Shown here piece by piece: positions 15,063 to 55,000 of a stretch of 64,000 bases of DNA. Location: positions 47,588,521-47,652,520 of the forward strand of contig NC_088302.1 of assembly GCF_032854445.1 (NCBI RefSeq), written 5' to 3'. The stretch's first letter is position 1; each line of letters begins with the position of its first letter. A program made the position numbers and the translations under genes. The notes under the pieces were generated by a model. It had not been told where the DNA came from. It saw only the letters and a program-made list of their open reading frames with translations, and searched no databases. The stretch comes from Liolophura sinensis (taxonomy: Eukaryota; Mollusca; Polyplacophora; Chitonida; Chitonidae).

Positions 15063-18000
15063 CTGTACGAAAAAAAAGAACAAAAGATAGGTAACATGAC
15101 ACATATTTTTTGTGTTGCATTCTAAATTTGTATTTATTTATTTACTCATTAAATTGTTGTTTATAAGGGTGTACACTGGGTCAGCTTTGTTGTCGGAGGA
15201 CATTGCAGTTACCGCAGTAAACTAACTCTTGACAAAGGCCAGAATGAAAGCCGCAGCCAAACCTGCTCCTCATCAACCAAACATACACTCTATGCAGCAA
15301 GACATCTCAGACGACAGGGCATGATTTATTAGCCCTTTACAAGGCAACATCTTCTGCCAAAACATATAGCTGGTGGCATTTTGGAACCTGCTGGTACATG
15401 TATACGCCTTGATGATGTTATAAATGAACCACTGTACGTAAGATACTAACAAAGCAGACCTCCTGTAGCATTTACTGAATGCTTGTAGGTCGTGCTTTCT
15501 AATAAAACTATAGTCAAGTGCTCAGTTTAATCATGACAACTGGTCTTCAGTATGACCACTAACTTTTGCCTCAACAAGCAGGTGACAACATGACAAGAGA
15601 AATCTAAATTTCCAGAAAACGACCACCTGCAAGCCAGTATGTTGGTATTGTAGTCATTTGAAAATAGCTTCACGACAAAGTCCCCTTTCGATTTTACGAT
15701 TATCTGGCTCCGTGGTATTTGTGCACCATGGGAATCTTTTAAGTACCGGTATAAGGCTATCGATTGTTACGGATATATAGGTATCGATCGTCTTAGTCAA
15801 ATAAAAAAAAAACCCAAAAAATCCAGATTTCAGGAAACCAACCTTTTCCCTCTTAACCTCTGGATTTCTCTTAGTATTTTAGTTATTTGAATATTCATTC
15901 AAGGCAAAAATTGCCCTTTTGAGTTGTACAATTAGCGGGCGCCGTGACATCTGTTGGAGTCTTTCAAGTACATACAACTACCTATCGTTAAATCGTTATT
16001 AGTAACGATCCATGAAATATTCTTGTATTTTAACTATAACATTATCGATCTTGTAAATCAAACATTCGTTTAACAATAACAATATAGCTAACAGTGATGA
16101 GACCTGTACAACAGCTACAAGTGTTAGCGCATGTAGATGATATCTTCACACAGATAACAAACCATCGCCATGGAGTACCGTTAACGCTGTTTTAAGATCC
16201 CGGATAGTGCTGCAGCTAAAGGTACAATTAAGAGTTTACAAGGGCGTCTATAAATATAGGCGAGACGATTTACTCGAACTAGTTATCTACTTCCCTAGAC
16301 AATTCAAGTGAGGCATACTGCTATTTCATATCATCAGCTCTCGCTGGTCTCCATTTCTTCTCTGTAGCTTTGTCTTAGGCTTTAGTCAGTACAGGCCGCT
16401 TTTATGTCCCTCTTGTGACTTAAGGGGTTGAGTACAAAACTATATATCTCAGTCAGACGGGTTCGGTTATAACTTTTAAGTGATACTTTGAAAGTTGGAG
16501 AAACATGATAGCAAGCCTACACACTTCCACATCAAGACTATTGTGTTTTTGTTGTTCAACAAATGGTTGCAAGAGATCTCATAACTACTAACTGATGCTG
16601 ATAGAAATTTAACAAATCACGGGCACGGAAACACCGCGACCACAATTCACTAACAATGGCCAAAAAACTTCAACATATCAGGCAAGTCATCTTTACTATA
16701 AAACCTGTCATGAAAAGCCTTAGGCGGGTATTTATTTCATTTCTTGGATTTAGGGGGAATCTGTGCTTGAATGACGTGGTTTGTGTGCCAGGTCGGCGCA
16801 TTGACCCAGCAGCCTCTCACCAATGTGGTTGCTCTGCGTTCAAGTTCAGCTAAAGCTGGCTTCCTCTCCGGCCGCACGTGGGAAGATCTACCAGCAGCCT
16901 GTTAGTGGCCGAGAGTTTCCCCCGGGCTCTGTCAGGTTTCTTCTCACCATAATGCTTACCGCCGTCGTATAGGTGAAATACTCTTGAGTTCGGCGTAAAA
17001 AACCATTTAAGTCAATAAATAAATAAATATTGGCTTGATGTTTAACATCACACAAAAGAATAAATCACTTATACGACTAACATTTAGCGAGTTATTAAAG
17101 AACTTTCCCTCGTGTGGTGCACAGATATGCAACCTATAAACTGGTAAAAGTACGGCGTAAAACAACAGTCAAGTAAATATATAAATACATTCGTGATAGA
17201 CAAGTGCTCTTCAACGAACGTTAGACAGCATCTCACGAACAGTGAGATCTGGTGAAAGGGAACTAAGACTTGTACTGAACAAGTACATCGTATGTCCTGG
17301 AAATTGAAGTGCCTTTAATTTATTTATTTATTTATTTATTTGATTGGTGGTTTACGCCGTACTCACCGTATGCCGTGGAATTTTTCACTTATACGACGGT
17401 GGCCAGCATTATGGTCGGAGGAGGAAACCGGGCAGAGCCCGGGGGAAACCAACGACTATCCGCAGGTTGTTGGCAGATGTTCCCATGTACGACCGGAGTG
17501 TAATCCAGCATAAGCTGGATTTGAACTCCTAGCTACCGCACAAGTGAGAGGTTCCTGGGTCACTGAGCTGCGCTGGTGTGCAAGCCGCATCGGCTCCAAA
17601 GCGCCTTTATTCACTCGACCACGGCCCGCTTCTGGAGACGTACAGCCCGGTCAAAGGTGCCATGTCAATTTAGTCAACCCTTGAAATGAACACATGTCTT
17701 AATGCATAAAATAAATATCTTTTCTTTCTTTCAACGCCAGGCAAAGCATTCTTCAATATATGTAACTAACTTGAGTTAGTGGAAAAGTGCAGATCTATAT
17801 AGGCCTATATCAGAAGCCTCCTACCAACCTCTTCATCTTCGTCGTCCTGTTTCATGCGGCTGTATATGAAGACTACACCATCCAGCGCTTCGTTCACTTC
17901 CTCACTGTACGGCTTGGCGAGACGGGTGTAAGTTCCCGCCTCGTCTCCGTCATCCTCCGAGTCCGCTTCGGCTTCCCGATGTCGAACTCGATTCCGATCC

Positions 18001-21000
18001 AAACTTGCGTTACGTATTTCCGGTATCGGAGACTCTTCCCGTTGGATGACGGTCGACTGACGTGGCATATCTGGCCGACGCATCAACAGAACTTTTGGAA
18101 GAATTTCCGTAAACACCCGTTTCACCCAAGGTGACATAACATGTGTGGATGGAGTTCGATGGTGAATGCTTAACACAAATACCGTCAACAAAATCGACAA
18201 CGTCACCACAACGCTTGTGAAGAGAAGGTATTTCCCTATTAACGGCACAACCAACGACGTTGGTGGAATCAGGTCTGATAACAACAGAAAGAACACAGTG
18301 AGCGCCAGTAAGATGGATATAGACAGCGTGATTTTCTCACAACTGTCGGACGGAAGGTAAAACACTAAAACACAAAGGCAGGATATCGCCATACATGGAA
18401 CGATGAGGTTGACGCTGTAGAACAATGTCCGCCGACGCAAAGTGACGTTGAACAGAATATCAGGGAATAAGTACTCGCAACACAGGTATTTTTTGCGTCT
18501 TAGTCTGGCAGTGACGTTGATTACGTCCCACTGGACGTTGGGGTAAAATCCATCCAAACTGATCGATCCATTACTGATGACGAGGCTTTCGTTGTGGTCC
18601 GGCACTTTCATTTGTCTGGTGCACTTGTGATGAAGATTAACGTGGCGTCCGTCGTATGACCACATCCCAAATCTTATAAAGCACTCCTGTATGTCAAAGG
18701 GAAAGAATTCCACATCAATAGGGCAATAACTCTTGATGATGGCTGGCGGTTCCCAGACAATCCTTCCGTCAAAATGTACCGTAGCTTTGGTCAGCAGTGT
18801 TATGGCGAAATCACCATCTGCGCTGTGAAAACATAGATATAGCTTTACACTTACATATTTACAACGACAACATGATGCGGCTGTAATTTATAGATCTTCG
18901 ACGAGACGAAGGTACGATGGTTTACTCCTGGTATTTCCGTTTGCCACCCATAAACCTGACCTTCGTCACAAAATTTGAAAATTTTTGAGCACAGCGATGA
19001 ACCAGTCCAATTTACCAATAATTAAACCACAGGTTGATTCCACAAAGGCGTTTCTGACTTCAGTCGAAACTTTAAAAAAAATCTTTGCGTGCGGTGGTAA
19101 AAGTTTTAACTTCTGAAGCCCAAAAATAAGCTTTAAAATCGTATTTCAAATTTTGATTTAAGTCACAAATGGCTTTGTGGAATCAGAGCCTGGAGAAAAA
19201 CCACCGCCCCTCGGCAAGTACCTGACGAACTTTTTGACTTGCCAGAAAACTGAACTTCAGTGTCCGATATGTAATGCAATGTGGTGGGCAGCTACAGGGG
19301 ATTTAAATCATTTTACGATTCCACGTACTGTAAGACACAGTCTTATCCAAAACATGGTAATAATTCATTTAATTGAATAATTTCATTTATTTATTTGATT
19401 GGTGTTTTTCGCCGAATTCAAGAATATTTCACTTATACACGACGGCGGCCAGCATTATGGTGGGAGGAAACCGAAAAGAGTCTGGAGGAAAGCCGTGACC
19501 ATCCGCGGGTTAATGCAGACCTTGCCACGTTCCCAACATCCTTGAACTTACTTATTGTACAGAACAATATCCGGTCTCCAGAGATCCTCTGAAGGAATTT
19601 TTAGTAATTTCACACCATCATATTCCACCGGGTCCCACGTCAACCGTCTGTCTACCCATACCTATAAGCAGTCAAAGGTGAATATTACTTATTCCACCAA
19701 CCACTGCTTATAATAACATACAAATCGAGGGCTCCTTTAAAAAAAATCCAAAAAGTCATCCAAAATACCAGATGGGTCGTAACACCCTTGTATTGCACAC
19801 CAATAAATCTGTTCTCCAAAACATGTGTTAGTGTGCCACTAGAGCAGAGAATGGCCTGGAAAGAGTATCGTTAAATTCTCTGGGAAACACACAGAGGCCT
19901 TCGGTAAAGAATATAATGGTTTTACAAAAAACACTATAAGAAAGCAGGAAGGCCTGAGTCCATTTTATTATTTACCAAGGTAACTGCACTTACATGTCTA
20001 AGCCAGATGCTTGTAGTCATGATTTGATTTTTTTCATCCTGGAAAAACAAATGCAAAGATAATACTTTCACTGTACTATGTAGTACGATGACTACAACCT
20101 GTAGTGAAAGAACCTGACAATCGTTTTACAGATGATTTGAATGAAAGAGGCAAAGAGGCGAATACTAGTAATCACTTACGGCATTCGGATATGGGAGACT
20201 TCATGCGATATAACATGTGCATGCTTACCGAAAACAAGCATCGAATGTGTCCAGAGAGCGGATTCTGGTCGAATGTACTTGGGTTTGAATAACCGGCTCC
20301 CATGAGACTTGGGTTTAAGCCTGTGCGAAATTTTTCCTGCCTTCATAGTTTTAGGGCCCCAATGGCAATAAGTGATCTGCGGTGATTCTGGCACCATCTC
20401 GTGTAGTCTTACATGAACTTCGCTCTTCCCTCCCCTCCCCTCAATATGACATAGCGGCGTAAAACACCAATCAAATAAATAAACAAGTATGACATATATG
20501 TCACACGTGGAAAATTTCACCTAACTAGCTTACCAAAGTGCGGTGGTAAGGTAAAATATCTGAGTAGTGCGTTAAACAACAATGAAAAAAAAATGCTATC
20601 GTAGACAAATATTCCTAAGTTCAAAACCTGGAGTCCTCTGGGTTTTCCCACTTCAGATCACCAGCCAATGACCACAGAATTCACGAGTTCTATTCTAGGT
20701 CACGCTGACTCAGTTGTGACTTTACGTCAGGAGGCTTGTCAGGTACCTGACAAGATGTGGTTGTCTCCTGCAGCTTGAGTCGTTTTATTTTTAAACATTC
20801 ACCTTGTTCCTCGAGGAACTAGCGCTGTTACATCATTTCATATCCTATCTCATTTCATTTAATACCTCCAACAAAATTGCAGTAACAAAAGTATCAAGGA
20901 TAAATGAGAGAGTACACTTAGAAAACATACCCTGGTTTAACTCAACGTTATCTGAGTGGTGCTAAAATATATTCTGTTATTATAACGTTTATATTAGTCC

Positions 21001-33410: not shown

Positions 33411-33529
33411 CCCCCCTCAAACATTGGAAAAAAGATTCATTCTGTTATTGTCATGTCCACTTAACACTGCTAAAAAGTCACAGCACTAATTTAAGAATTT
33501 CCAATAAGAAAAGGTCTGATAAAATCAAC

Positions 33530-34050: not shown

Positions 34051-37000
34051 CTGAAGCGTACAGGGGCATAAATGTAACAGATATTTGTTCTCAACCCAGA
34101 AGACATGAATCTAACTGTTAAATTTCCACATTAAGAAATGATGTAGTGCTACTTGGTTAGGTATGCTTTAGCTGGCTAAAAATGATGGAACCTCAACCCT
34201 TATTTGCATTTTTTGGCTGTAAAGAAAAATCATGAAAACTGTGTTCTGAATCAGCTCAAAATGGCCTTTCAGAAGATGTTTATTGGGTGCAGATGGTCAT
34301 GGGTTTCCTTGATTTTGACAGACCTTCCACATTTTTTTTAAAGTCGTATTAAATACTCTATTAATGTTTCTACATGTAGCTTAACTGATTCCAGAATTAT
34401 GAAAACAGGAAAACACTTCAGTAGGGCCTGATCATGATTACATAACATCACTTCCTACAATTACTAGGAAACTAGATGAAAAACAAATAAGCCTGCCTCT
34501 AGACTGAGGTATAAACAATCAACATTAATTAGCCTTCAGAACACTCTGACATTATAAACATGTAGCTTCCTTCGTAAAATGGATAAGCCAATAAAGCTGA
34601 TTTTGCATTTTAATGTTATATTTTTGCCCTTTACCTTCTAATGCCATGTTGTCTATGTTAGACACTGGGTTGTTGTCGCATCTACTGGTGCTTAGGTACA
34701 TCTTCCACTGTCGCTTGATGACAGTGCTATCACTGAGAGCTGAGAAGAAGGGAGAGAGGGGGTGATCACCGTCCTCATGGGGCTTCTGTCCACTCTGAAG
34801 TGAAGACAGAAACAACACTTCAGATGAATGAAGCTTGAAACAATAGAAAAAGAAGGAGCATGGAGAGTGGTAATGTGCTCAACTTAACTCCAAGAGATGT
34901 GGGCTCATTATCTCTGCCTAGATTATAGAAATGACAACACCAAATATCCTCGCCTTAGAAAGGGAACTTCTAGATTATAGAAATGACACCACCAAATATC
35001 CTCGCCTTAGAAAGGGAACTTCTAGATTATAGAAATGACAACACCAAATATCCTCGTCTTTGAAAGGGAACTTCTAGATTATAGAAATGACAACAACAAA
35101 TATCCTCGTCTTAGAAAGGGAATTTCTAGATTATAGAAATGACAACAACAAAATGTTAATGTAATGGTCTTAAAAAAGTTTTACCAACATAAAAGGCAAA
35201 GCTGTCTACCAAGAAGCTTGTATCATACATCCTTCTTGGTGCTGTGCTTGAAGTATGTCTTCATGGTGTGTCTATTCAGCAGCATTTCTGGAGCTTCTTC
35301 TGTCTAGACTGATACAATGGCATAAAAGCCATTAAAATGATCCTGAAAATCATTAATCTAGTCTGTGAAGCTTTATCTCTAAAGTCAAACCATAAAAATG
35401 CAAAAGTTACAATTGATCTTATATGTACAAAAGACAATAAATCTTACATATGCAACAGTAATATCCGGTTGAGGACAGAACTATCCTGGTACTCTCCTTC
35501 CCTGAAGGAAGGAAAAGTTGAAGAAGATTTTACCTGCTGGATGAAGAGTTCTCCATACTGGGCAATCTTGTTATCAACGACATCTAGCTGACTTGGGGAC
35601 AGACCTAGTAGCTGAGCGACAACGTCCCCCTGGCAAGACACCACAGCTGTACTAGAGCCATCATCTACAAGGAGCCTGGGGAGGGGCAACACAGACAGGT
35701 GAATAAATGAATGAAATAATGAAAGATATTACGGGATATTTAGACCAAGAATACTCAGACTGTATGGCACATGATCATACCTGACATGTTCAGCACGGCA
35801 TTTAGAAGGAGCGACACAAGAAGTACATGCGCACGTACATTGGAACTGGCCTACTACAACTCAGATCTGGTAGCAAGGCTACCAAAGAAAAACTGAGCTC
35901 AATACATGCATTACTTTTTAAGATACCACCCCTAACATTTACCTCAACATTGCTAGGCCAGTTATTGCACGACAATGCCAATTCTTGGGTTATAACATTA
36001 GCTATGCCTGTACATTGTAGAGGTGAGCTGAAAAGCCATTGAAATAATATCAAAACTGACTTAAGTCAAGACCTTCAATTCTCTTCCCATCCTTACACAA
36101 TGAAAAAGCAAATAAAATAACCATTCCATTTTTTAGTCATTAATTTTGGTCATGACCAACAATGTAATTTTTTAAGGGCTCCAAGGTATGATTTAATATA
36201 CATTTATTTCAGGTATATATACTGATGTGGCATACTGATTAACTTGGAACATATCCCCCACAAATGTCTACAAGGAAATTACCTTGCCCTGGCCACGAAG
36301 TGCCTGCCCTGCCCAGAACAGCCAGCAGAGTTACACGCACCACCCTGGTACTGCCGGCCACACCCGTCACAGACGGACTTCAGTGAGAGGCGCAGAACTT
36401 GTAACACATCACATACACTGTAGAAAGGGGAAGCAGCAGAACTCCCAGAATTCCACAAATCACCTAGGAAATGTGGTTGGTAAGTTGACAAATCCATTTG
36501 TTCTGGCTGTTTAAAGGGCTTACATCGATTCCTGCAAAATGTAAAAAAGATCATACTTATAGCAAAAACGATTTGCTTGTTTAAAGGGCTCACCACTAAT
36601 GTTTAATGCTATCAATAACTTCCATTCTTTTCTTAAACCTTCTAGTCCACAATAAGTTGACTATGAGTATAACCCTCACATATGGGTCTGTATAAATCTA
36701 TAATCTGGACAGGGACACCTTTCCAGATGAAGCAGATAGATGGACTGTGCCTTGTGCCCTACAGCAAAGGTTTATTACATTAATTATTACAGATCAGCAA
36801 AAACCCTTCTTAACTGAAACTACTGATTGTTTTTGAAAAGAAATGATTAAATTATACCCAGAATCAGGGGGAGTAACTCCGTCAGCTCCTCCTCCAGTCT
36901 GTAACACCTTGACAGTTGACACAGCAATATACTGACAGTACACGGATCCCTTCCTAGAAACACGCCTCTCTAAACGTGCAAATTTCACCATTACGCCAGG

Positions 37001-40000
37001 AATGAGGCCCAAGGGGAGAGTACTCTTGTGTAAGTTCATGTAGACTGTCAAGGAGTGAAGTCCCCCTTTGTCAGTCACTTCCAGCTGGATACATTTGTTC
37101 TCCAAGGTGGAAATTCCTGCAAATACAAAAGCGTATGACTTTTATATATTTTACCCCCATAATTCACACATTACCAAGAATTATTAACACTATTAATTAA
37201 GGAATATGACTAGAATCTGATATGATACATTTGATCATGTACATGGTTTGGTGTCTTATTATTTGACATACATTGTATATCCAGATTGAAGAAATGAACA
37301 TAAGTCATGTCCCCCACACATACGTATTATACCACACGTTATGTTGCTGCGTGCTTATCAGTATGTTCAGTGCTATTCCATCCCGATCATGGGTCCATTT
37401 AGCGGAAGGGATCCAACGAGTGATTTCTGAGAGTAAAGCCACTAGAGCCAGGAATGTGTTCATTTACACAGAACATATATACACATGTACATACATTGTC
37501 ATGTGACTGCCTGGAGTCCAGTATACCTAATCCAGTAATGGCATTATCAGTGTCCAATAGTTACAAAACACTACATAAAGTGTGATTTTTTATCTTTGAA
37601 AAGTTGCTAAACCAAGATACCACATCCAAAAAAGTAAGCAAAACTATAATGAACATAAAGAAAATTGAGAATGTCACCATGTTATCAATTTTAACCAAGA
37701 ACCCAAGAACGCAGTTTCCTCCAACATTGCGAGAGCAGGCTTTCGCCTGTTGTCCATATGTGCACAGTGCGCCAGTGATGTTTCTGGTCTCTCTAACATG
37801 GTGTGCCCCACAGCCTCATAAGAATTCCAGATTAAAAGTTGATTCACCGGTATAGGGTTACTATGACATGTAAGTGCATCAGAAAAAATGGCACCTCTGT
37901 TTCCACTCCTGCTCCAAAACAACTGATCTTATATTATTTTTTGTATTCTTTTTTAAACTAATGTAATTCACATGTAACAAAAGGAACATATTAGAATTGA
38001 GGCATTTAGAGGCATTCTGAGTAGCTAACCAAATTCAGTGTATATTCTATGATGTTTGTCGATGCTCTATGATGCTGAAATTCTATTTGCAGAAAGATGT
38101 GTCTTGCCTCAGGGACAAAAGCGCCTAGGAGTGTTATGTCATAGCCTATATTTATTTATTTGATTGGCGTTTTACTCCGTACTCAAAAATATTTCACTTA
38201 TAAGACGGCGAACAGCATTATGGTGGGAGGAAAACGGGCAGAGCCGGAGGAAAATCCACGACCATTTGTTGAAAGGCCTTCTAATGTACGGCCGTTACGT
38301 CATGTAGGATATGACGACAAACAAACACACTAAGACTTACAAAGAGGTAAATACTACGCAGCTGTCAAAACTTTCCATGTTAATAAACTGACGTCCAGCT
38401 TCAGTCTAAATTGTTTTTCTGGTTTTTGCTATTACAATAAAACAACTGTTGACTCTATCAGTCGATTCAAAGACTTGAAAAACACAAATACCCTCGGTCA
38501 ATATTACTTTTCTCAGGTTGACAAATTCATGACTTATCATTTTACCAATAAAATATATAATGAAACAGCCCACTGTTCATTTCCATTACAATAAAAGGGG
38601 AATTCAACTCATGCTTGAACAAATTTCTTCCGTTTATATAATAGATACAGGAAACTATGCAATTTGATAATTGGTGAATCATAGGCAACTGTGGAAAGGT
38701 GTAATACATTGTCACCTCTTTGTATTTCTACCAAAAAGTCAAACTGCACAACATGCGAGACAACTGGACCAAATCGCAGTAGGCTACCATAATACCACAC
38801 ATGGGAATATAACATTGAGCGTATAAAAATCAGATAGGAAACTAATGCAGGAAATATATCTACATACCTAGGTGAGTATTAAGCTGCTCCTCTCTTTCCC
38901 CTGGGGTGACGGGCCCCTGCCTTCTACTGGAGGGGAGCTCTGGATCCAGGTGAGTCCGTGACGATATCACACCTGTCACACTGACCAGTATCAACAGACA
39001 TCTGACAACACACGTAACACAGAGGTCCTTGTAACTGTATATATACAATAAGGTCATTCAAAGTATTTTATACCTGTAACTACTGGTTTTCCACTCGGCA
39101 AATTTACACATCATTTTGTGAGATAATCCTTGTCTGCTGGTTTAACACTATACATGTATGTATTCTGACAGCACCAGCATTATTAACTAGCTGAAATATA
39201 TTATCCAGATAACTCACAGAGATATTCTTTATATGCAATATCAATTAATATAATGAGAGCTGTTAAGAGATTAACTCATCTGCAATATTCCTCAAAAGTT
39301 ACTTAACTAGACACAACCACTACATAATTCATAGAAAGATTATGAAAGATGGCACATTTCTTTTTTGCAACATCAGAGAAACAATGAGTTCATAAATTAA
39401 TATTCTTGCAGTTCTTTTACTTCATGATTTCTATACATCAAACATATTGGTACCTGACTTTATTCTTAGAGTGATTATTCATACTGCTTGCCTTTCTATC
39501 ACTGGGAAACATCCTGTGGGTTCAAACCTTGGCCTGGACAAGAAACTTGTACATTAATTTTATTTCTATATTCACTGAAGAAGATAACATGGCACGCTTT
39601 CAGCACAGAAATTTGTAATATTTGGTTTAAAGAATCACAATGACTTCTAACACAAGATCTGTAATGCAGGTTACACATTTCATGCATGACCTACCTTTCT
39701 GAGAGCACCTGTTCTATTGTACAACATTTCTCTTGCATGCCTGCACGATACTTCTCCCAGGTGGCCACTGATACTTCCATATAACCCCCTTGTATCTGGA
39801 AAAGCAGGAGTGAAAATGAATACAGATCAGACATGTAAATAAACTGAGGACGACTGAACATATTCACCTGAAGATTAAGGGAAACAGGAATGGGATCCTC
39901 AATGCCTGGTGTACCTAGAAATATATATGTGAAGACATTTTACACGGTTACCATATGATGCCATGGGATACCACAATCTAAATTCCAACAATGGGTAACT

Positions 40001-43000
40001 TGAAGTCTGCATCACATAGCTCAACATTCAAACCAGCCCAAAAATAGTAAAAGGATTGTCAAGCCATTTATAAAAAAAAAGCACTTTTTAAAGGAAGGTA
40101 CACAACCGTTATGAAAATGGTTCCCCACGTGATCATGAAACGCTGATTTTCAACTGTAAATTTGCATCCAAACAAGTACTTTATTTATTTATTTATCTGA
40201 TCAGTGTTTATGCCATACTTAAGAATATTTCAGTTACATGATAGAGGTTGGTTGATGATGGAAATCAAACCAGGCGGAACCTGAGGGAAACGCATCTCCA
40301 TAGAACACCTTCCCATGAACGACCAGAGAGGAAGCCTGCATGAGCTGTACTTGAACTCACAACAACGGTACTGGTGAGACAAACCAAAGTCACATACATG
40401 TACATCAGAAAGAAGTGCAATACACACCTGCTTGGCAGAACTGGTATGTTCTTCAGAACTCTGCGATATCCTCACATGTAAACGCTGAAGTCTGACACTA
40501 GACGGCAGCATTATACACTGGGTAGCCTTAAATTTCTCCACAGCTGTCTTCACTGTTGAGGATATGTACTTCGGTTGGAGTTGCATTTCATCACATTTTG
40601 GAACAGAAAGTTGATAAAAATGACCTGTATGCAACACATGGTAATTTGACACTGTTTCTCCTTGGAAAACCAATAGTACATTATTGTCTTCCACGGGAAC
40701 TTCAGAAGTGTGTTCTTTGCCAGAATTCAGATGACAGGCATCAGAGTGAATGACTGGGTTGGTGGTCAGGGAGTGTGCTCCAGAGTCCATACTGTGACCA
40801 GCCATATTCTGGCCACAACAGCTTGACCTCAAACACTTCTCATTGGCACATTCACATGGGGCTGTTTCACTTAAAGTCACAAAATTTCCCAATGCACAGA
40901 ATCGTAACCTTGGTTGTCTGGCCACATGACTGTCCATCATTAATGATTCTTTTTGCGCCAGGAAAAATGTTTTACGAACAAAATCATTTTGCAGATTAGC
41001 GTGACCGTTGCAAACATTCCTCTCGGCTCCTGCACTCAGATACAAACACTGTTTATGACAACTACTGTTATTGCTGTTTTTGTTAACCACCATGTCTTTC
41101 TTCTCACTCTGTCCAAAGCCCATGCAGCTGTCATGTTTACTTCTATGATACTGCTCCGCTGAAGTATCCAGACATGTGTAGCATTGACTGTTATCATTGT
41201 TGCATTGGTTGCTACCGTTACACCTGCTACTTTTGCTATCTTTGCTACTCTTGTTGCACTGGTTATTACATGCATTGCTGTACAAGTTACCTCTGGGATA
41301 TTTGTGTTTATCACACTCATAAACAGCGTAAGAACCCGAGGAAGATTGATTTTCAGACCCGTGTGATTTTGCACTTTGCATGACATGCACATCTTGCATA
41401 GAAAACATCAAATATGGCTGGATCCTCGACTGTTTAACATACTGCGGATCTCCTATATGTTTGGTGCTCGGGAAATTAGCTGTCATGAAGCGTTCTGTGA
41501 CAACACAATATCTATCAACACGAACAAGATTTCCACAATCAGAGGTTTGTATAAATGGACAGCTGGAGCCTCTGCTCAGATTTTGGTCACTATGATTACA
41601 GTCTTGATTATCACAGGTATGTGTTTGTGAGTTTTCTGGATGAGGTGCAACAACAACATCAATGGCTCCGGTGTTGTCCACAAGCTGTAACTGTCCAGTC
41701 TTGCAGGAGGGCTTGAGAACTCCCACCAGTACCTACAAGATAAAAAGTTCACACACCTGTATCTCTAGTACAAATTAAAATCTATAATTTTCCTATTTGC
41801 TTACTAAATATTCAAATGATATTACGAGAACAAAATCCTTATCTGAACAAATGTAAAGGATCTGGTACGATAAGGTGGAGAATCAGCCCCAGAGAGGTAC
41901 AATAAAATAGCCCAAATTTCAAAACAACAGAACAGTTCTGTAAATTTCCAAATCAGAAGTATAAAATTTGTTCCAATCACCCAAATAAGTTATATGACCA
42001 TAAAAAAGATGCTGCTTATTAACTAGCCACCAAAAATGCACACACGATCAAAACAGTTTTGTTCTGGTTAAAACTAGTCTTCATATGTAAAAAATACACT
42101 TTATAATGTATTTAGTTTTCTTATCTTTGGTATTTTTTTTTTTTTGATTGGTGTTTTACGCCGTACTCAAGAATATTTCACTTATACGACGGCGGTCAGC
42201 ATTATGGTGGGTGGAAACCGGGCACAGCCCGGGGGAAACCCACGACCATCCGCAGGTTGCTGGCAGACCTTCCCACTATTATACTGATGCCTGACATAAT
42301 ATGGCTGAAATATGAATTTTAAAGTTATACTTTGGTAAGTTTAAAATTCATATTTCAGCCATATTATGTCAGGCATCCTTCATAGTACAATGAACTGACG
42401 AAATCACTATGAAGAACAGGTTGCATTTTAGAAAGAGTTTGAATCATTGTTGTCCTTTTTTTCTTTGGCAACATACTTTTTGTGTGAGAAAAGATAAAGG
42501 ATGTTTTGCATTAAACAAGTGTTATCATGAATTAGAATGGATAACTGGTTAAGTTATGGTATCATATGATGTGTGGCAACTATAGTGAAATCATACGCAA
42601 ATCCTGGTTGAGAGCACGTGGTCCTCTAGCTATCATTAACATTAACATATTACATGTATGCATGCCTGTAGCAGAAGTATAAGGCTGAACATTTGCCATA
42701 AATGCTATATACTTGCTACTGATTGGTGCATAACTGCATACTCAACAGTTTCCAGAAAGTTACATTTGTAGTGCAGTGATTTTTTTCCCACTCTACAGTG
42801 TCTGATGTAAAAAAGATACTTCAGCGCGACTGAAGCAGTCTACCATTTTTTGATTTTATGACCTATACATTGCTTCAGTGTATGTTTGGTGCTTTATAAG
42901 TGGCATGTTTGCCATATAACAGGAATAAAACAGAACTGAAAAAGAAGTAGCCTCACAAGTGTGTCAGCAGCTGTCACTCACGGCTAAAGTCACTTTCGAC

Positions 43001-46000
43001 TGAGGTGCACAGTTTCTTGCACTAGGGCCGATCCCTTACAATACCAGGTCCTATAGACATTCACATTAGTAAATAAATGTATCCCCACGTCAAAGAATAC
43101 TACACACTCTCAGAGAAGAAGTTTTCAAGGTTTCCATCTTGGTTGGGGGCCTTTCTGCCACAAAGTGGTCTATTGGCTCTCTCTAGTATGGGCTTACATG
43201 GAGTTTGCTAGAGGTTTGCCTTCTTCCAGTTTGACATGTGTCACACACTGGAAAGTTTGCTCAAGGTTTGCCTTCTTCCAGCTTGACATGTGTCACACGC
43301 CGGAAAGTTTGCTACAGACTTGCCTTCTTCCAGTATGACACGTGTCACATGCTGGAAAGTTTGCTTGAGGTTTACCTTCCTCCAGCTTGAAACGTGACAC
43401 ACGCCTCAAAGTTTCCCTTTCTCTAGCTTGACATGTGCCACACACTGGAAATTTTGCTCAAGGTTTGCCTTCTTCCAGCTTGACATGTGTCACACGCCGG
43501 AAAGTTTGCTACAGACTTGCCTTCTTCCAGTCTGACATGTGTCACACGCCGGAAAGTTTGCTCGAGGTTTGCCTTCTTCCAGCTTGACATGTGTCACACG
43601 CCGGAAAGTTTGCTCAAGGTTTGCCTTCTTCAAGCTTGACATGTGTCACACACTGGAAAGTTTGCTCAAGGTTTGCCTTCATCCAGCTTGACATGTCACA
43701 CGCCAGAAAGTTTGCTATAGACTTGCCTTCTTCCAGTCTGACATGTGATACACACTGGAAAGTCTGCTCAAGGTTTGCCTTCATCCAACTTGACATGTGT
43801 CACAAGCCGGAAAGTTTGCTCGAGATTTGCCTTCTTCCAGCTTGACATGTGTCACACGCCAGGAAAGTTTGCTCGAGGTTTGCCTTCTTCCAGTTTGACA
43901 TGTGTCACACGCCAGAATGTTTGCTCGAGGTTTGCCTTCTTCCAGTTTGACATGTGCCACACACAGGAAAGTTTGTTAGTTACTCATCAAAAATCCATGG
44001 TTAATTGACAACCAGCACTGCACATTAAACTGGCCAACATTGTTCAAGAGAAAAACTCTGGAGCATGGTATTAATCACCAATCAAAAAAAAATATCAATA
44101 AATCAAAGTCTAGTCCAGAATTTGTTACTTAGGTCATCCTTAATTTGCTTACATGTTCATGAAGACCTCACTAACACAGACCAGAAATCCTATTTTCTCT
44201 TCTACGACTGAACACAGATATTAAAGAGACATGTTAGGGATAACGGGAATTATATATGAAGAGACAAAGACTGTTGTATAACTAATTACACAAGAGTACA
44301 TGTACCTGGTTATTTGTTTCTTGTGTGACATCCAGCTGCTGATCATAACCCCAATAAAGTCTCCCCTTCAGTTGTTCCCTGGACAACTGTAGATGACCAC
44401 AACACTCCCTAAGACGCTGGATTGCCGTGTCCATACTGGACAACTGCTCATGTAGATCTCCCAGTGTGAGGACTCTTGGTATATTCCTGTCATTCTGTCA
44501 AATAAATATTCTCTTCATCCATTTCCACAAAAAACCAATTCTGTAAACCAATTAAGGTTATTAGTTTAATATTTCAGGAGATACACTAGAGAGTGGCACT
44601 GTAGGAGAAGCATGGTGCTAATTTCAAATTACACATCAATGTATTAAAATAACAAAAATAAATGCAATGTATACGTAATTTTTTTGGCGACACAGCTTTC
44701 TAAAATTAATCCCAAAATGGTTACTAACCTGTGTGAATAGAGCACAGGTATGATCCCTTGGGAGGAACTGCTCTAAAGGGCTCCTGGCTCCTACCCATGG
44801 GCTGGCTGGACCAGTGGGCTCTGTCTTTGGGGTGAGGAGACAGGTCAGGAGCACACGAGGACTGGCAACACTTCTGTCAACACAAAGATCGTGTAATATC
44901 ATAAAAGGTGTGGCTCTCTTCAGTAAGAGGGGAGAGGAGACAGGTCAGGAGCACACGAGGACTAGCAAGATCTCTGTCAACACACAGGTCACCAAACATC
45001 ATATAAGGTGTGGCTGTCCACAGTGAGAGGGGAGAGGAGACAGGCCAAGGAGCACATGAGGGCTGACAACACTTCTGTCAACACACAGGTCACCAAACAT
45101 CATATAAGGTGTGGCTCTCTACAGTAAGAGAGGAGAGGAGGCAGGTCAGGAGCACATGAGGGCTGACAACACTTCTGTCAACACACAGGTCACCAAACAT
45201 CATACAAGGTGTGGCTCTCTACAGTAAGAGAGGAGAGGAGACAGGCCAAGGAGCACATGAGGGCTGACAACACTTCTGTCAACACACAGGTCACCAAACA
45301 TCATACAAGGTGTGGCTCTCTACAGTAAGAGAGGAGAGGAGACAGGCCAAGGAGCACATGAGGGCTGACAACACTTCTGTCAACACACAGGTCACCAAAC
45401 ATCATATAAGGTGTGGCTCTCTACAGTAAGAGAGGAGAGGAGACAGGTCAGGAGCACATGAGGGCTGACAACACTTCTGTCAACACACAGGTCACCAAAC
45501 ATCATACAAGGTGTGGCTCTCTACAGTAAGAGAGGAGAGGAGACAGGCCAAGGAGCACATGAGGGCTGACAACACTTCTGTCAACACACAGGTCACCAAA
45601 CATCATATAAGGTGTGGCTCTCTACAGTAAGATGGGAGAGGAGACAGGCCAAGAAGCACACAAGGGCTAGCAACACTTCTGTCAACACACAGGTCACCAA
45701 ACATCATACAAGGTGTGGCTCTCTACAGTAAGAGGGGAGAGGAGACAGGCCAAGGAGCACACAAGGGCTGGCAACACTTCTGTCAACACACAGGTCACCA
45801 AACATCATATAAGGTGTGGCTCTCTACAGTAAGAGGGGAGAGGAGACAGGCCAAGGAGCACACAAGGGCTGGCAAAACTTCTGTCAACACACAGGTCACC
45901 AAACATCATATAAGGTGTGGCTCTCTACAGTAAGAGAGGAGAGGAGACAGGTCAGGAGCACATGACGGCTGACAACACTTCTGTCAACACACAGGTCATC

Positions 46001-49000
46001 AATCATCATACAAGGTGCGGCTCTCTACAATAAGAGAGGAGAGGAGACAGGTCAGGAGCACATGAGGGCTGACACTTCTGTCAACACACAGGTCACCAAA
46101 CATCATACAAGGTGTGGCTCTCTACAGTAAGAGGGGAGAGGAGACAGGTCAGGAGCACATGACGACTGACAACACTTCTGTCAACACACAGGTCATGAAA
46201 CATCATACAAGGTGTGGCTCTCCACAGTGAGAGGGGAGAGGAGACAGGCCAAGGAGCACACAAGGGCTAGCAACACTTCTGTCAACACACAGGTCACCAA
46301 ACATCATACAAGGTGTGGCTCTCTACAGTAAGAGAGGAGAGGAGACAGGTCAGGAGCACATGAGGGCTGACAACACTTCTGTCAACACACAGGTCACCAA
46401 ACATCATACAAAGTGTGGCTCTCTACAGTAAGAGAGGAGAGGAGACAGGCCAAGGAGCACATGAGGGCTGACAACACTTCTGTCAACACACAGGTCACCA
46501 AACATCATATAAGGTGTGGCTCTCTACAGTAAGAGAGGAGAGGAGACAGGCCAAGGAACACACGAGGGCTAGCAACACTTCTGTCAACACACAGGTCACC
46601 AAACATCATACAAGGTGTGGCTCTCTACAGTAAGAGAGGAGAGGAGACAGGTCAGGAGCACATGAGGGCTGACAACACTTCTGTCAACACACAGGTCACC
46701 AAACATCATATAAGGTGTGGCTCTCTACAGTAAGAGAGGAGAGGAGACAGGTCAGGAGCACATGAGGGCTGACAACACTTCTGTCAACACACAGGTCACC
46801 AAACATCATATAAGGTGTGGCTCTCTACAGTAAGAGAGGAGAGGAGACAGGTCAGGAGCACATGACGGCTGACAACACTTCTGTCAACACACAGGTCACC
46901 AAACATCATACAAGGTGTGGCTCTCTACAGTAAGAGAAGAGAGGAGACAGGTCAGGAGCACATGAGGGCTGACAACACTTCTGTCAACACACAGGTCACC
47001 AAACATCATACAAGGTGTGGCTCTCTACAGTAAGAGAGGAGAGGAGACAGGTCAGGAGCACATGAGGGCTGACAACACTTCTGTCAACACACAGGTCACC
47101 AAACATCATATAAGGTGTGGCTCTCTACAGTAAGATGGGAGAGGAGACAGGCCAAGAAGCACACAAGGGCTAGCAACACTTCTGTCAACACACAGGTCAC
47201 CAAACATCATACAAGGTGTGGCTCTCTACAGTAAGAGGGGAGAGGAGACAGGCCAAGGAGCACACAAGGGCTGGCAACACTTCTGTCAACACACAGGTCA
47301 CCAAACATCATATAAGGTGTGGCTCTCTACAGTAAGAGAGGAGAGGAGACAGGTCAGGAGCACATGACGGCTGACAACACTTCTGTCAACACACAGGTCA
47401 TCAATCATCATACAAGGTGCGGCTCTCTACAATAAGAGAGGAGAGGAGACAGGTCAGGAGCACATGAGGGCTGACACTTCTGTCAACACACAGGTCACCA
47501 AACATCATACAAGGTGTGGCTCTCTACAGTAAGAGGGGAGAGGAGACAGGTCAGGAGCACATGACGACTGACAACACTTCTGTCAACACACAGGTCATGA
47601 AACATCATACAAGGTGTGGCTCTCCACAGTGAGAGGGGAGAGGAGACAGGCCAAGGAGCACACAAGGGCTAGCAACACTTCTGTCAACACACAGGTCACC
47701 AAACATCATACAAGGTGTGGCTCTCTACAGTAAGAGAGGAGAGGAGACAGGCCAAGGAGCGCACAAGGGCTAGCAACACTTCTGTCAACACACAGGTCAC
47801 CAAACATCATACAAGGTGTGGCTCTCTACAGTAAGAGAGGAGAGGAGACAGGCCAAGGAGCGCACAAGGGCTAGCAACACTTCTGTCAACACACAGGTCA
47901 CCAAACATCATACAAGGTGTGGCTCTCTACAGTAAGAGAGGAGAGGAGACAGGTCAGGAGCACATGACGACTGACAACACTTCTGTCAACACACAGGTCA
48001 TGAAACATCATACAAGGTGCGGCTCTCCACAGTGAGAGGGGAGAGGAGACAGGCCAAGGAGCACACAAGGGCTAGCAACACTTCTGTCAACACACAGGTC
48101 ACCAAACATCATACAAGGTGTGGCTCTCTACAGTAAGAGAGGAGAGGAGACAGGTCAGGAGCACATGAGGGCTGACAACACTTCTGTCAACACACAGGTC
48201 ACCAAACATCATACAAGGTGTGGCTCTCTACAGTAAGAGAGGAGAGGAGACAGGCCAAGGAGCACATGAGGGCTGACAACACTTCTGTCAACACACAGGT
48301 CACCAAACATCATACAAGGTGTGGCTCTCTACAGTAAGAGAGGAGAGGAGACAGGCCAAGGAGCACACGAGGACTAGCAACACTTCTGTCAACACACAGG
48401 TCACCAAACATCATACAAGGTGCGGCTCTCTACAGTAAGAGAGGAGAGGAGACAGGCCAAGGAGCACATGAGGGCTGACAACACTTCTGTCAACACACAG
48501 GTCACCAAACATCATACAAGGTGTGGCTCTCTACAGTAAGAGGGGAGAGGAGACAGGCCAAGGAGCGCACAAGGGCTAGCAACACTTCTGTCAACACACA
48601 GGTCACCAAACATCATACAAGGTGTGGCTCTCTACAGTAAGAGAGGAGAGGAGACAGGCCAAGGAGCACACGAGGGCTAGCAACCCTTCTGTCAACACAC
48701 AGGTCACCAAACATCATACAAGGTGTGGCTCTCTACAGTAAGAGAGGAGAGGAGACAGGCCAAGGAGCACATGAGGGCTGACACTTCTGTCAACACACAG
48801 GTCACCAAACATCATACAAGGTGTGGCTCTCTACAGTAAGAGAGGAGAGGAGACAGGCCAAGGAGCACATGAGGGCTGACAACACTTCTGTCAACACACA
48901 GGTCACCAAACATCATACAAGGTGTGGCTCTCTACAGTAAGAGGGGAGAGGAGACAGGCCAAGGAGCGCACAAGGGCTAGCAACACTTCTGTCAACACAC

Positions 49001-52000
49001 AGGTCACCAAACATCATACAAGGTGCGGCTCTCTACAGTAAGAGAGGAGAGGAGACAGGTCAGGAGCACACAAGGACTAGCAAGATCTCTGTCAACACAC
49101 AGGTCACCAAACATCATACAAGGTGTGGCTCTCTACAGCAAGAGAGGAGAGGAGACAGGCCAAGGAGCACACAAGGGCTAGCAACACTTCTGTCAACACA
49201 CAGGTCACCAAACATCATACAAGGTGTGGCTCTCTACACAGGTCAGGAGCACACAAGGGCTAGCAACACTTCTGTCAACACACAGGTCACCAAACATCAT
49301 ACAAGGTGTGGCTCTCTACAGTAAGAGAGGAGAGGAGACAGGCCAAGGAGCGCACAAGGGCTAGCAACACTTCTGTCAACACACAGGTCACCAAACATCA
49401 TATAAGGTGTGGCTCTCTACAGTAAGAGAGGAGAGGAGACAGGTCAGGAGCACATGAGGGCTGACAACACTTCTGTCAACACACAGGTCACCAAACATCA
49501 TACAAGGTGTGGCTCTCTACAGTAAGAGAGGAGAGGAGACAGGTCAGGAGCACATGAGGGCTAGCAACACTTCTGTCAACACACAGGTCACCAAACATCA
49601 TACAAGGTGTGGCTCTCTACAGTAAGAGAGGAGAGGAGACAGGCCAAGGAGCACATGAGGGCTGACAACACTTCTGTCAACACACAGGTCACCAAACATC
49701 ATACAAGGTGTGGCTCTCTACAGTAAGAGAGGAGAGGAGACAGGCCAAGGAGCACACGAGGGCTAGCAACCCTTCTGTCAACACACAGGTCACCAAACAT
49801 CATACAAGGTGCGGCTCTCTACAGTAAGAGAGGAGAGGAGACAGGCCAAGGAGCACATGAGGGCTGACAACACTTCTGTCAACACACAGGTCACCAAACA
49901 TCATACAAGGTGTGGCTCTCTACAGTAAGAGGGGAGAGGAGACAGGCCAAGGAGCGCACAAGGGCTAGCAACACTTCTGTCAACACACAGGTCACCAAAC
50001 ATCATACAAGGTGTGGCTCTCTACAGTAAGAGAGGAGAGGAGACAGGCCAAGGAGCACACGAGGGCTAGCAACCCTTCTGTCAACACACAGGTCACCAAA
50101 CATCATACAAGGTGTGGCTCTCTACAGTAAGAGAGGAGAGGAGACAGGCCAAGGAGCACATGAGGGCTGACACTTCTGTCAACACACAGGTCACCAAACA
50201 TCATACAAGGTGTGGCTCTCTACAGTAAGAGAGGAGAGGAGACAGGCCAAGGAGCACATGAGGGCTGGCAACACTTCTGTCAACACACAGGTCACCAAAC
50301 ATCATACAAGGTGTGGCTCTCTACAGTAAGAGGGGAGAGGAGACAGGCCAAGGAGCGCACAAGGGCTAGCAACACTTCTGTCAACACAAAGGTCACCAAA
50401 CATCATACAAGGTGCGGCTCTCTACAGTAAGAGAGGAGAGGAGACAGGTCAGGAGCACACAAGGACTAGCAAGATCTCTGTCAACACACAGGTCACCAAA
50501 CATCATACAAGGTGTGGCTCTCTACAGCAAGAGAGGAGAGGAGACAGGCCAAGGAGCACACAAGGGCTAGCAACACTTCTGTCAACACACAGGTCACCAA
50601 ACATCATACAAGGTGTGGCTCTCTACAGTAAGAGAGGAGAGGAGACAGGTCAGGAGCACACAAGGGCTAGCAACACTTCTGTCAACACACAGGTCACCAA
50701 ACATCATACAAGGTGTGGCTCTCTACAGTAAGAGAGGAGAGGAGACAGGCCAAGGAGCACACAAGGGCTAGCAACACTTCTGTCAACACACAGGTCACCA
50801 AACATCATATAAGGTGTGGCTCTCTACAGTAAGAGAGGAGAGGAGACAGGTCAGGAGCACATGAGGGCTGACAACACTTCTGTCAACACACAGGTCACCA
50901 AACATCATACAAGGTGTGGCTCTCTACAGTAAGAGAGGAGAGGAGACAGGTCAGAAGCACATGAGGGCTGACAACACTTCTGTCAACACACAGGTCACCA
51001 AACATCATACAAGGTGTGGCTCTCTACAGTAAGAGAGGAGAGGAGACAGGTCAGGAGCACATGAGGGCTGACAACACTTCTGTCAACACACAGGTCACCA
51101 ATTATCATACAAGGTGTGGCTCTCCACAGTGAGAGGGGAGAGGAGACAGGCCAAGGAGCACACGAGGGCTGGCAACACTTCTGCCAACACACAGGTCACC
51201 AAACATCATAAAACATGTGGCTCTCTTCATTAAGAGGGGAGAGGAGACAGGTCAGGAGCACACCAGGAGAACATATGGACCATCTTTCATGGCATATAAA
51301 GCTCCAATATGTTACAAATGTTTTCGTAAACATATGATGGCAGTAAAGATTATACCTAAAGATGGAGGAAACCAAATATACATGGTAGCGGAAACCCAAT
51401 AACCTTTTATGCTGTGCCTGACAAACATTCTTACGTATACTTAACGCTGCTGGCAGATTCCAGTATGCAGCAGCTGGATTTTAACCTAGCTGGTCAGAGG
51501 CCTAAACTGCAAGTGCTTGGCAAGCCACATGCAAAGCTTCAACACCATAACAAGAACCACAGCTCTGTAGACCTTACCCCAGTTTCTGCTGTAGAGCCTC
51601 CTCCGCTGTCCTTAACTGCTCAAACTGCCCCACGCTAACACTGTACTGCTGAAGCATCTGTAGACTGCCTCTCCTACTACTATCCATCCTCTGAAGCAGA
51701 AAAACAATGTCAGTGGTAACATATGAGAAATATGTTCAAAATTGTTATAAAAATTATGCCATATTACGCTATATAGTAATTGCAAATTTTCGACACTCAC
51801 ACAAGGGAGATAGCAACAGTACGTAAATGTCAATTTATTGTTGAGCTTCTTCAAATTTCTACTGATAGATCGTTGTTTTATGGCATAATCAAAACTTTTT
51901 TCACTTAAACAATGGCAGCCAGTTTTATGCATGGAGGAAACCAGAGCGCCCAGAGTGAACCAGTATCTTTTGCCGACTTAATGGCTAACATTCCCACATT

Positions 52001-55000
52001 TGACATATACCATAATGGTGGAAGGCAAGTGGTCTCCAGCCAACTTTTTCAAGACCACACAAGCGAACAGTCAACAACTAATTGCCATCAATCAGGACAA
52101 TTAAAGCAGAGCAATCTAGAAAATTCCAGTCTTCAATTTTAAAAGAGTTACAATGTTTCAGTTCAATTTAGAAATAAAATCCAACGAAGAACCTTCAATC
52201 ATATAAAACCAATTCTTCCCTGGCAAGTAGTCTAATCAGACAAGAATGGTTACCTGATGGACAGGCACTCTGATTATCATACACACAGTAAATAGTATTG
52301 TATTGTACAAGCAGCTGCAGATAAACATCACATCTGTCTGTTTTTCTTTAACTAACAACGCCTTAAAAATCAGAGAACTTACCGCACAAGTAACATTAAA
52401 GGGAGAGAACTCCACTATTTTCACACAGCTCTGTATGCACCCAAACAGACGAATCTTTGGAGGCTGAAAGAGACCAGACACTGGCTCTTACAGCTCCTCT
52501 GTCAGCCCAAATAGTCTTGAAAATACTTTACTACAAACCAGTTTAACAAAATCCTTGTGGTAGTACAAAGAGAAATGATACTGAAACAACATCAGATATA
52601 TTTTACAGGTTAGTCTTTGAGAGGTAATCCAAGTAAGAAAATAACAATGAACATTGTTTCAATCTGTTTATAACAATACTCTTTTCTAATAATCATCAGC
52701 AGTAAAGATCAAGACTTATGTTATAAAATACCCAGACCATTTCATTTGGCAAGATTCACAATAGTAGTTCTGTTACTTACCTGAGGTGATCCCTTATGAT
52801 GAGTGTTGCACAAAACAACTCTACAGCCTGGGCGCAGAGGCCAGAACTTACTGACAGCTGGGATATAACTCACATGTAAGCTGGGGAAATTGACACAAAG
52901 AAAATCAGTTAACATTGCATTTAAAACCAATAGTATCAACATAAAATAGACTCATTACACTTCTTTTTACTGAAAACATTCTTATAGATTGATATTGTTT
53001 TATATATATTGGTACTATTGTACAAATGCTGAGATGGTTTGTTTGTCAGCATTGCGGATTAACATCTGAATCGTTACAAAGTAGTCTCTGTTATTTTAGG
53101 ATGTTTCTAATGTCAGCAAATTAATAAAGCTGGAGTCAATTCCATAAAGCCATTTCAAAATCTGAGATTTTGACATATCAGTTATTAATGCCATTTAAGA
53201 CCAATGTTTCAAAATCTCAACTAACAGTACCAAAACTTACAGGTATAAAGCACTGAGGAAAAGTTCTAAATTTTGACAGATAAGAGAAATGGTCTTGCAG
53301 AACCTCACTGGGGTGTATATTATACAAAATAGTCACAATGCTGTGCTTCCAGTACATGTTGTCATGGCGCATGCTTTTCTTGACAGAGGCCTGCAGAAAA
53401 CCATGCCAGACATCACACCCTACCAAGTAACATAATAAACTTACTAAAGACTCTAATAATGCATGAATCAAGATTCAAGCATAAATAATTAAGATGAATC
53501 TATTCTAATTTGGACAACTTGTACAAGTCATAACTATATGTATATAATAACTTGAATGCATGCAATGAATTCAATGAATCATATCCTTTAAGTGTTACCC
53601 AATTTTGTTGTCTAGTTGATAAATTCCCACATCTGATTTGGATGCATCTGTAATTGTGCCCTGAAATAAAACGAGACTATGTGGTAGGCACACATTCCAT
53701 TGCTTCAACTGTTCAGGATGTAACCCGACTATCTAACAGCTAACAATTTTAAGACAAACTTTATATAATACAGAAGATACATGTATTTCACATGAAGCCT
53801 TAAATGACAAAGAGCAAAAACAACCACAAAGAAATTCAGGGTCTCTAATACAAACCTGAATATGTCTGTCTAGTTCCAGAGCCTACACAGTCAGTATTCA
53901 TATTAACAGAGCCTACACAGTCAGTATTCATATTAACAGAGCCTACACAGTCAGTATTCATATTAACAGAGCCTACACAGTCAGTATTCATATTAACGGA
54001 CCACTGTATACAGGAGCCAAAATGATTATTAAATAATATTCAAGAAATCGAAAAAAAGGCTCATTATTAAAACTGTAATATTAAATGTGATTACCTCAAA
54101 ATTTGGAGAGAATTCAATTACTGTAAATCTTCAAACTTTTTGAAACTTTGGAAGATGTTTATTAAAGCATATTCTGAATGTATTTTTCTTTGTTGACTGA
54201 TAAAATTATACTTTTTGTGAAACCCTGAAACTGGCCAGTCCAACCAAACAGGCTAAGTCTGGTCTCCAAAATGAAATTAAAAATGTGCATAAATTGCACT
54301 GAAAGTCGCTTTTTCAGTAGTGAAAAGGTTGAGGAACTGAAGCATTGTCTGTAAGCAAAACTGTGCGTTTTATCTTGTGTGGCATCAGTCAGATTTATGG
54401 ATGGAGGAAGTTGGAAGTTTGTGTGTAAACCAGGTATTGTCACCAGATACCAGACAAACCTCCAGTCCTGAAGCCTCAGCTAAACCAGCAAGCTCAAAGG
54501 CAAGAGGTGGGCTGAAATCAGTAAAAACAATACTTTGACCAAACAAGCATTTTTCAAGTATTGTGAATGGATGTTACACCAAGCAGATAATTTGTGACAA
54601 TCCCAGTACTCAACAATACTTGAATTCATCAACTGACTGAGTATTAGAATGCTAAAATCAGCCATTCATTTCAGCTCTGTAATTGCATTATGGCTTCAAA
54701 AGACCACTTTGGTGGCCTAATGGTTAAAGCATCCACCTCCAATTCAGGAGACCCCAAAATCAAACCTAGGTCGGGTCCAAAGACCAAAGACTTTAAAAAT
54801 GGTACTTGCTGCTGCCTCGTTTGGTGCTCACCACTAAGCGGTTAGAGTGAAAGAAACGGGACTGGTTGGCACAGTGTCAGTATAATATGGCTGGGTGCAA
54901 TGTCATTTTTGGTGTATTCGACATGTTACTTCAGTGGCGGCAGCACTTTGGCAGCATGTACACAAGAAGACACAATATATGTACACACACCTAATGACTC

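Follow-up and report, generated by a model that had tools for sequence, protein, structure and literature searches.

A long tandem array derived from a splice junction in the CTC1 gene of the chiton Liolophura sinensis

The CTC1 locus

CTC1 is the large subunit of the telomeric CST complex. In the chiton Liolophura sinensis, its gene lies on the minus strand of the 64,000-nucleotide stretch analysed here (assembly GCF_032854445.1, contig NC_088302.1, positions 47,588,521 to 47,652,520; hereafter the window), and intron 12 of this gene contains a tandem array, or minisatellite, whose units are copies of the intron 12/exon 13 junction. The window forms part of contig C8 of the genome searched, which comprises 609,464,459 bases in 632 contigs. 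The source assembly was first published as Liolophura japonica, the name being later corrected to L. sinensis (PMC12441733).

Fourteen CTC1 exons can be joined with compatible phases and zero stops, and exon 15 follows next. The modelled protein, including the start of exon 15, matches the Pfam CTC1 family PF15489 (E=1.1e-43) and human CTC1 in PDB (E=2.8e-15). A wrong gene model was considered as a source of error and rejected on the strength of the joined open exons and of these two matches. Exon 13 is defined by an open frame and by phases compatible with those of exons 12 and 14. Its first ~40 nt represent the exon-side end copy of the array repeat unit; the alignment of the exon start to human CTC1 is weak, as is the conservation of its first ~15 residues, and one Pfam CTC1 match that starts within the exon reaches 22.1 bits, under the curated cut-off of 27.8. 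All splice-site scores are given in bits and were obtained with splice matrices. The features of the locus, all on the minus strand, are as follows.

40230-62595: CTC1 gene, modelled part (PF15489, human CTC1 structures, exon model)
62595: start of CTC1 exon 1 (exon model)
51578-51690: CTC1 exon 12, donor GGG/GTAAGG, 9.5 bits (exon model)
44874-51577: CTC1 intron 12, 6,704 bp, of which ~6.4 kb is array (exon model and scoring of AGs)
44834-51262: tandem array, 63 complete units of ~100/101 bp plus partial ends, from the intron 12/exon 13 junction (Tandem Repeats Finder, segmentation, alignment, genome search)
51097-51262: distal end copies, acceptor 2 reading TGAAG or TGTGG and matching the other end (alignment)
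45092-51096: array interior, homogenised units, most with a stronger TAG acceptor 2 (segmentation, alignment)
44874-45091: exon-proximal end units, acceptor 2 reading TGTGG or TGAAG (alignment)
44729-44873: CTC1 exon 13, 145 nt, acceptor TTTGTGTTGACAG, donor CAG/GTTAGT (open frame, phase fit)
44306-44494: CTC1 exon 14 (exon model)
41732-40230: open frame of CTC1 exon 15 (exon model)
36794-37141 and 35444-35728: additional CTC1 matches (Pfam PF15489 or human CTC1 structures)

Structure of the array

An earlier, sequence-only reading of this DNA had recognised in the CTC1 gene a series of about 63 tandem units homologous to the intron 12/exon 13 boundary, each carrying two acceptors, between an exon 12 donor at 51577 and an exon 13 beginning at 44873. 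Gene, coordinates, copy number and homology are all borne out. Tandem Repeats Finder reports an array at 44834-51262 with a period of 101, 64.2 copies and 92% matches, and segmentation, with cuts placed at acceptor 1, yields 63 complete units (35 of 101 bp, 23 of 100, two of 98, two of 97 and one of 82). Among these units there are 34 distinct sequences, with a mean pairwise identity of 0.93. Array and exon 13 stand in one common register at the junction, and the closest of the copied junctions (hereafter decoys) agrees with the exon at 37 of its first 40 nt. When the unit was searched against the genome, 64 of 64 matches fell inside the CTC1 array; no copy was found elsewhere, in a search that skips very common words and is thus not proof of absence. 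Both array length and units are known from one haplotype. The assembled length is plausible, because HiFi reads, with a mean length of 8.3 kb and a coverage of 14x (PMC11068029), on average exceed the 6.4 kb of the array.

Runs of units recur within the array at a spacing of 14, units 11-14 reappearing at 25-28 and units 36-39 at 50-53, and this recurrence is a sign that suggests unequal exchange in the past. The two ends of the array differ from its interior. Identity to the consensus is 0.921 in units 1, 2, 62 and 63 against 0.955 inside, a small gap that is mostly due to unit 63 (0.84), and the second acceptor of the two terminal copies on either side is without the TAG form that prevails in the interior. 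Since both array ends read TGAAG or TGTGG at this site, the strong TAG acceptor probably arose inside the array and then spread, which would explain why the two units nearest exon 13 are without it.

Ordinary minisatellites also occur in the window, at 33528, 43202, 53877 and 56869 (Tandem Repeats Finder). They resemble the intron 12 array in being short-unit tandem growths in or near a gene, but include no splice junction of the CTC1 model. One of them, at 43202-43975 in intron 14, consists of ~15 copies of 52 bp, lies 331 bp from exon 14 and crosses no junction. Another, at 53877-53997 in intron 8, comprises four 30-bp copies with a 100% match and looks like a very young array. Two copies of a further repeat, ending in TTGAGTACGG(C/A)GTAAAAC(A/G)CCAATCAAA, are found on the minus strand in CTC1 introns at about 42130-42330 and 38170-38300; the repeat may resemble a mollusc short interspersed nuclear element.

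Decoy splice sites in intron 12

The presence of two acceptors per unit is confirmed. The first, of the exon 13 type (acceptor 1), shows AG in 64 of 64 copies, a count that takes in the genuine site; the second (acceptor 2) has AG in 58 of the 63 matched copies and GG in the remaining five. The genuine exon 13 acceptor scores 5.58 bits. Throughout intron 12, 58 of 393 AGs outscore it, 57 of these within the array, and each of the other 13 modelled introns has between zero and five such AGs. Scoring of the unit acceptors, which the sequence-only reading had proposed, thus agrees in large part with its view that the second acceptor is the stronger: acceptor 2 takes the form TGTAG in 57 copies, and 56 of these outscore the genuine site, but the TAG form is absent from the two copies at each array end, the TGTAG nearest exon 13 lying at 45118. 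Likewise, the context with a branch-like CTGAC that had been attributed to this acceptor (CTCCTGACCTG) holds for 25 of 63 units only; other units differ, 37 of them carrying CTTGGCCTG.

That joining exon 12 to a decoy creates a stop codon, as had been claimed, is supported by computation for every decoy tested. Read from exon 12, acceptor 1 decoys give a stop in 63 of 63 cases, 64-94 nt on, and the TGTAG decoys of acceptor 2 in 57 of 57, 16 nt on, always before exon 13 is reached. In this respect the decoys resemble the alternative sites of a poison exon. As for donors, the best within the units score 3.8-3.9 bits, against 7.7 for the donor of exon 13 and a range of 0.2-12.7 for the 14 modelled donors. 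The decoys therefore appear poorly paired with donors, yet not plainly donor-less. Two other roles were considered for these sites and rejected. Recursive splicing needs an acceptor AG followed directly by GT, and the decoys mostly have AG followed by AA or by AG. Selection keeping acceptor 1 as a functional decoy was set aside, its high conservation being indistinguishable from homogenisation.

Junction arrays elsewhere in the chiton genome

In 13 random stretches of 10 kb, minisatellites (period of at least 15, at least 2.5 copies) cover 9,687 of 130,000 bases (7.5%). One of these stretches, L013, contains at 6480-7642 an array of ~23 copies of 50 bp whose end takes in the acceptor and the opening bases of an AMP-binding exon. 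Exon edges were surveyed in two gene families, with 85 dynein (PF08393) and 26 myosin (PF00063) matches, 111 in all, in 113,122 bases distributed over 23 stretches. These stretches took in 85 of the 86 dynein matches and 26 of the 81 myosin matches; the clusters were chosen for exon density, and the survey deals with domain matches rather than annotated exons. Of 19 merged arrays, six overlap an exon-match edge (two in L022, one each in L030 and L036, and two in L039), whereas random placement allowing equal overlap gives a mean of 1.78 (P=0.0053, tolerance 0 bp). With an edge tolerance of 15 bp the random mean rises to 2.39 (P=0.023) and with 25 bp to 2.80 (P=0.048). The excess of arrays at exon edges is suggestive only, because the six fall in just four of the 23 stretches and are not fully independent. 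Expressed per exon match, a junction array accompanies 6 of 111 (95% interval 2.0-11.4%). The CTC1 window, L013 and two further loci noticed after the fact, L040 and L032, stand outside this count, as does a list of 109 PF00209 matches. L040 holds nine 121-bp copies of an exon end and its donor, with a unit encoding NLLLEPSEDR; the exon is absent from the list of domain matches, and we take it to be a myosin exon from its translation and from its position, with myosin matches of the same orientation on both sides. L032 is a donor duplication of 2.2 copies at a dynein exon.

Altogether ten junction arrays were examined, the CTC1 array and nine more at seven other loci, and among them the CTC1 array, with 63 copies, is the longest. 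It is thus one of several junction arrays in this genome, which occur at acceptors and at donors alike. In all ten, the copy adjoining the exon is the one with the fitting site. This is the last copy of each of the four arrays at acceptors (CTC1, L013 and both of L022) and the first copy of each of the six at donors (L030, L036, both of L039, L040 and L032). For three other arrays the unit was found to be private to its own locus (9 of 9, 22 of 22 and 14 of 14 genome matches). The exon parts of the arrays other than CTC1 fall within dynein or myosin domain matches or read as protein, which indicates that copying ran from exon to array.

All or most copies retain the splice-site dinucleotide in CTC1 (64/64), L013 (19/22), L036 (6/6), L040 (9/9) and L032 (2/2), the genuine copy being included, and in both arrays of L039 (17/17 and 14/14, the second count taking in copies of an adjoining array of shorter period). 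There is, therefore, no general purge of decoys. Frequent loss is seen at two loci. AG is kept in 7 of 22 copies in the first array of L022 and in 14 of 21 in the second, and GT in 5 of 9 in L030 (genuine copy counted except in the second L022 array). In that first L022 array, a dynein junction array (1652-3097, C1:95,579,051 onward), AT stands in place of the acceptor AG in 15 of 22 copies, unlike in CTC1. Reading past the genuine donor runs into a stop, no more than 18 codons on, in L040, L036, both arrays of L039 and L030; not every donor array behaves in this way, since in L032 the frame remains open through the one extra copy.

A 98-bp array whose units carry CACACAG and CTGTAG acceptor-like sites was also noted in L008 (7769-8292, C3:7,007,768 onward), with no neighbouring exon identified.

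Known systems of the same kind

A tandem array of this sort in the Adh3 gene of amphioxus is said to have been described by Canestro in 2002 (NAR 30:2871). The amphioxus globins BflGb6 and BflGb9 carry 'mirages', i.e., minisatellite-like tandem copies of intron-exon boundaries, and RT-PCR (reverse transcription PCR) suggests that these do not interfere with regular splicing (PMC3087553). The same work reports that the ends of the mirage escape homogenisation, and proposes a model of intron gain. A further amphioxus mirage is found in PGBD5, with those of Adh and TnC cited alongside (PMC3902484).

The CTC1 array is a large mirage in a chiton; the kind is already known, and the long mollusc example is new. 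As in BflGb6, the unit combines the 3′ end of an intron with the 5′ part of an exon and so spans the splice junction, the array ending ~40 nt inside exon 13. It derives from its own gene and, within the genome search described above, is not dispersed. Many copies, though not all, keep their AG or GT, and acceptor-side and donor-side arrays both occur, as in amphioxus. Finally, two copies at each end lie outside the homogenised interior, as reported for BflGb6. The differences concern the host, which is a chiton and not a cephalochordate; the size, 63 units compared with six and three in two BflGb6 haplotypes; the second, stronger-scoring acceptor that most CTC1 units possess and the array ends lack; and the type of evidence, RT-PCR in amphioxus and sequence alone here.

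Comparable structures exist in human genes. Intron 18 of ABCA7 contains a variable number tandem repeat (VNTR) with a 25-bp unit and up to about 427 copies (10.7 kb), which likewise abuts a junction, the first two bases of the array being the donor of exon 18, and of which a single unit can be retained via a cryptic donor (PMC5954066). It differs from the CTC1 array in its 25-bp unit, its donor-side position and its human host, and in that effects of its length on exon 19 skipping and on expression have been measured. Variable internal tandem repeats at exon-intron boundaries have also been described in human genes in segmental duplications, where they may form novel introns (PMC2812944). These are again boundary minisatellites possibly involving cryptic splice sites, but their units average 30 bp in four copies, they began from repeats within exons, and novel introns are reported for them, while the CTC1 array is intronic and overlaps its exon by ~40 nt. 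In the abstracts or passages of the few open-licence PMC papers listed, no junction array from a mollusc was recognised. The existence of these amphioxus and human cases (PMC3087553, PMC3902484, PMC5954066, PMC2812944) reduces the novelty that the sequence-only reading had implied when it knew of no such system in a telomere gene.

Origin of the array and its consequences for CTC1 splicing

Most probably the CTC1 array is a minisatellite of the mirage kind, born from the intron 12/exon 13 junction and passed over by splicing. A segment with the end of intron 12 and the start of exon 13 underwent tandem duplication, as shown by the sequence homology and by units found solely here. Growth and homogenisation through unequal exchange or slippage would have followed, a course suggested by the repeated unit runs and the differing ends. 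The decoy acceptors would remain mostly unused. Exon 13 would be recognised through the pairing of its acceptor with a good donor of its own, 145 nt downstream, i.e., by exon definition, and the decoys, near weaker donors only, would be passed over, leaving the array as long, tolerated intron filler. Occasional use of a decoy would lead to the premature stop computed above and might open the transcript to nonsense-mediated decay. Among the outcomes that the sequence-only reading had listed, a neutral array tolerated by skipping is the best supported.

Several observations weigh against this reading. The suggestion that decoys go unused is drawn by analogy from the amphioxus cases. The dinucleotide loss in both L022 arrays and in L030 could be explained by selection against decoys. 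The second L022 array is the weakest case of all, as it copies the acceptor with almost no exon, and its exon-side copy has diverged. Exon definition is weakened by the array donors of 3.8-3.9 bits lying within the gene's own range of 0.2-12.7, and because of this overlap cassette exons of about 80 nt using such donors are conceivable. An ancestral coding origin for the opening 40 nt of exon 13 is suggested weakly, through the weak alignment to human CTC1. In human genes, moreover, the length of the ABCA7 VNTR affects exon skipping and expression (PMC5954066), and boundary repeats in duplicated genes reportedly switch on cryptic splice sites and give rise to introns (PMC2812944).

One alternative is a length-dependent brake, in which decoys capture part of the CTC1 transcripts, premature stops and decay follow, and array length sets the dosage of CTC1 and CST. 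We regard it as unlikely. The 56 of 57 TGTAG acceptors that outscore the genuine site, the stop that every tested decoy yields, and the correlation of ABCA7 VNTR length with exon skipping and lower expression (PMC5954066) would all suit such a device; on the other side, the two units adjoining exon 13 are without strong decoys, the ABCA7 isoforms with a retained unit or a cryptic site are unchanged by length (PMC5954066), and the amphioxus mirages seemingly leave regular splicing undisturbed by RT-PCR (PMC3087553). Comparable arrays occur, in addition, in unrelated genes, and since dynein, myosin and AMP-binding exons carry arrays of the same kind, the arrangement is not confined to a telomere gene and a brake or poison-exon system specific to CTC1 is not supported. 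Braking of CTC1 is conceivable by analogy, because a VNTR that begins at a donor alters exon 19 skipping and expression of ABCA7 with its length.

There are two further accounts. It is very improbable that a dispersed satellite or a transposon-borne repeat landed in intron 12 and that the start of exon 13 was exonised from it. The exon is weakly conserved over its first ~15 residues, which would fit this course of events, as would the single register of array and exon at the junction; it was rejected for lack of any other copy in the genome search, with its restriction on very common words, and the exon parts of other junction arrays, lying within conserved domains, point to copying from exon to array. 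Least credence is given to the view that the array is an intermediate of intron evolution, a store of spare splice sites for recruiting new exons or intron positions. Such a model is laid out for the amphioxus globins (PMC3087553), boundary repeats are reported to form introns in human paralogs (PMC2812944), and in CTC1 the decoy acceptors and exon copies are intact, but the best unit donor reaches just 3.9 bits and all tested decoys give stops.

The CTC1 case calls for no telomere-specific explanation, and the point of most general interest is how splicing would pass over many strong decoys. If 60 intact acceptors are skipped, many of them outscoring the real one, this would constitute a natural test of pairing across the exon versus site strength. 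One genome, for which RNA-seq is public, offers arrays ranging from 2 to 63 copies at acceptors as well as donors, and the question can be addressed immediately. Mirages, a name that in the abstracts or passages of open-licence PMC literature was found applied to lancelets only, occur in a mollusc, and there are signs that the class is common in the chiton genome. More tentatively, and with some doubt on our part, splice junctions might be favoured birthplaces of minisatellites in this chiton and perhaps in other minisatellite-rich molluscs. Extrapolated from the 6 of 111 exon matches, the share of exons with an acceptor or donor array of their own would then amount to several per cent, thousands of near-perfect decoys would be ignored per transcriptome, and the CTC1 array would be long enough for its length to affect expression, perhaps.

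Neighbouring genes

Apart from CTC1, the window contains two genes for pentameric ligand-gated ion channels (Neur_chan_LBD, Neur_chan_memb) on its minus strand, at 2838-3950 and 17805-18887. Both have long uninterrupted frames and are similar to each other in sequence, with 14 kb between them.

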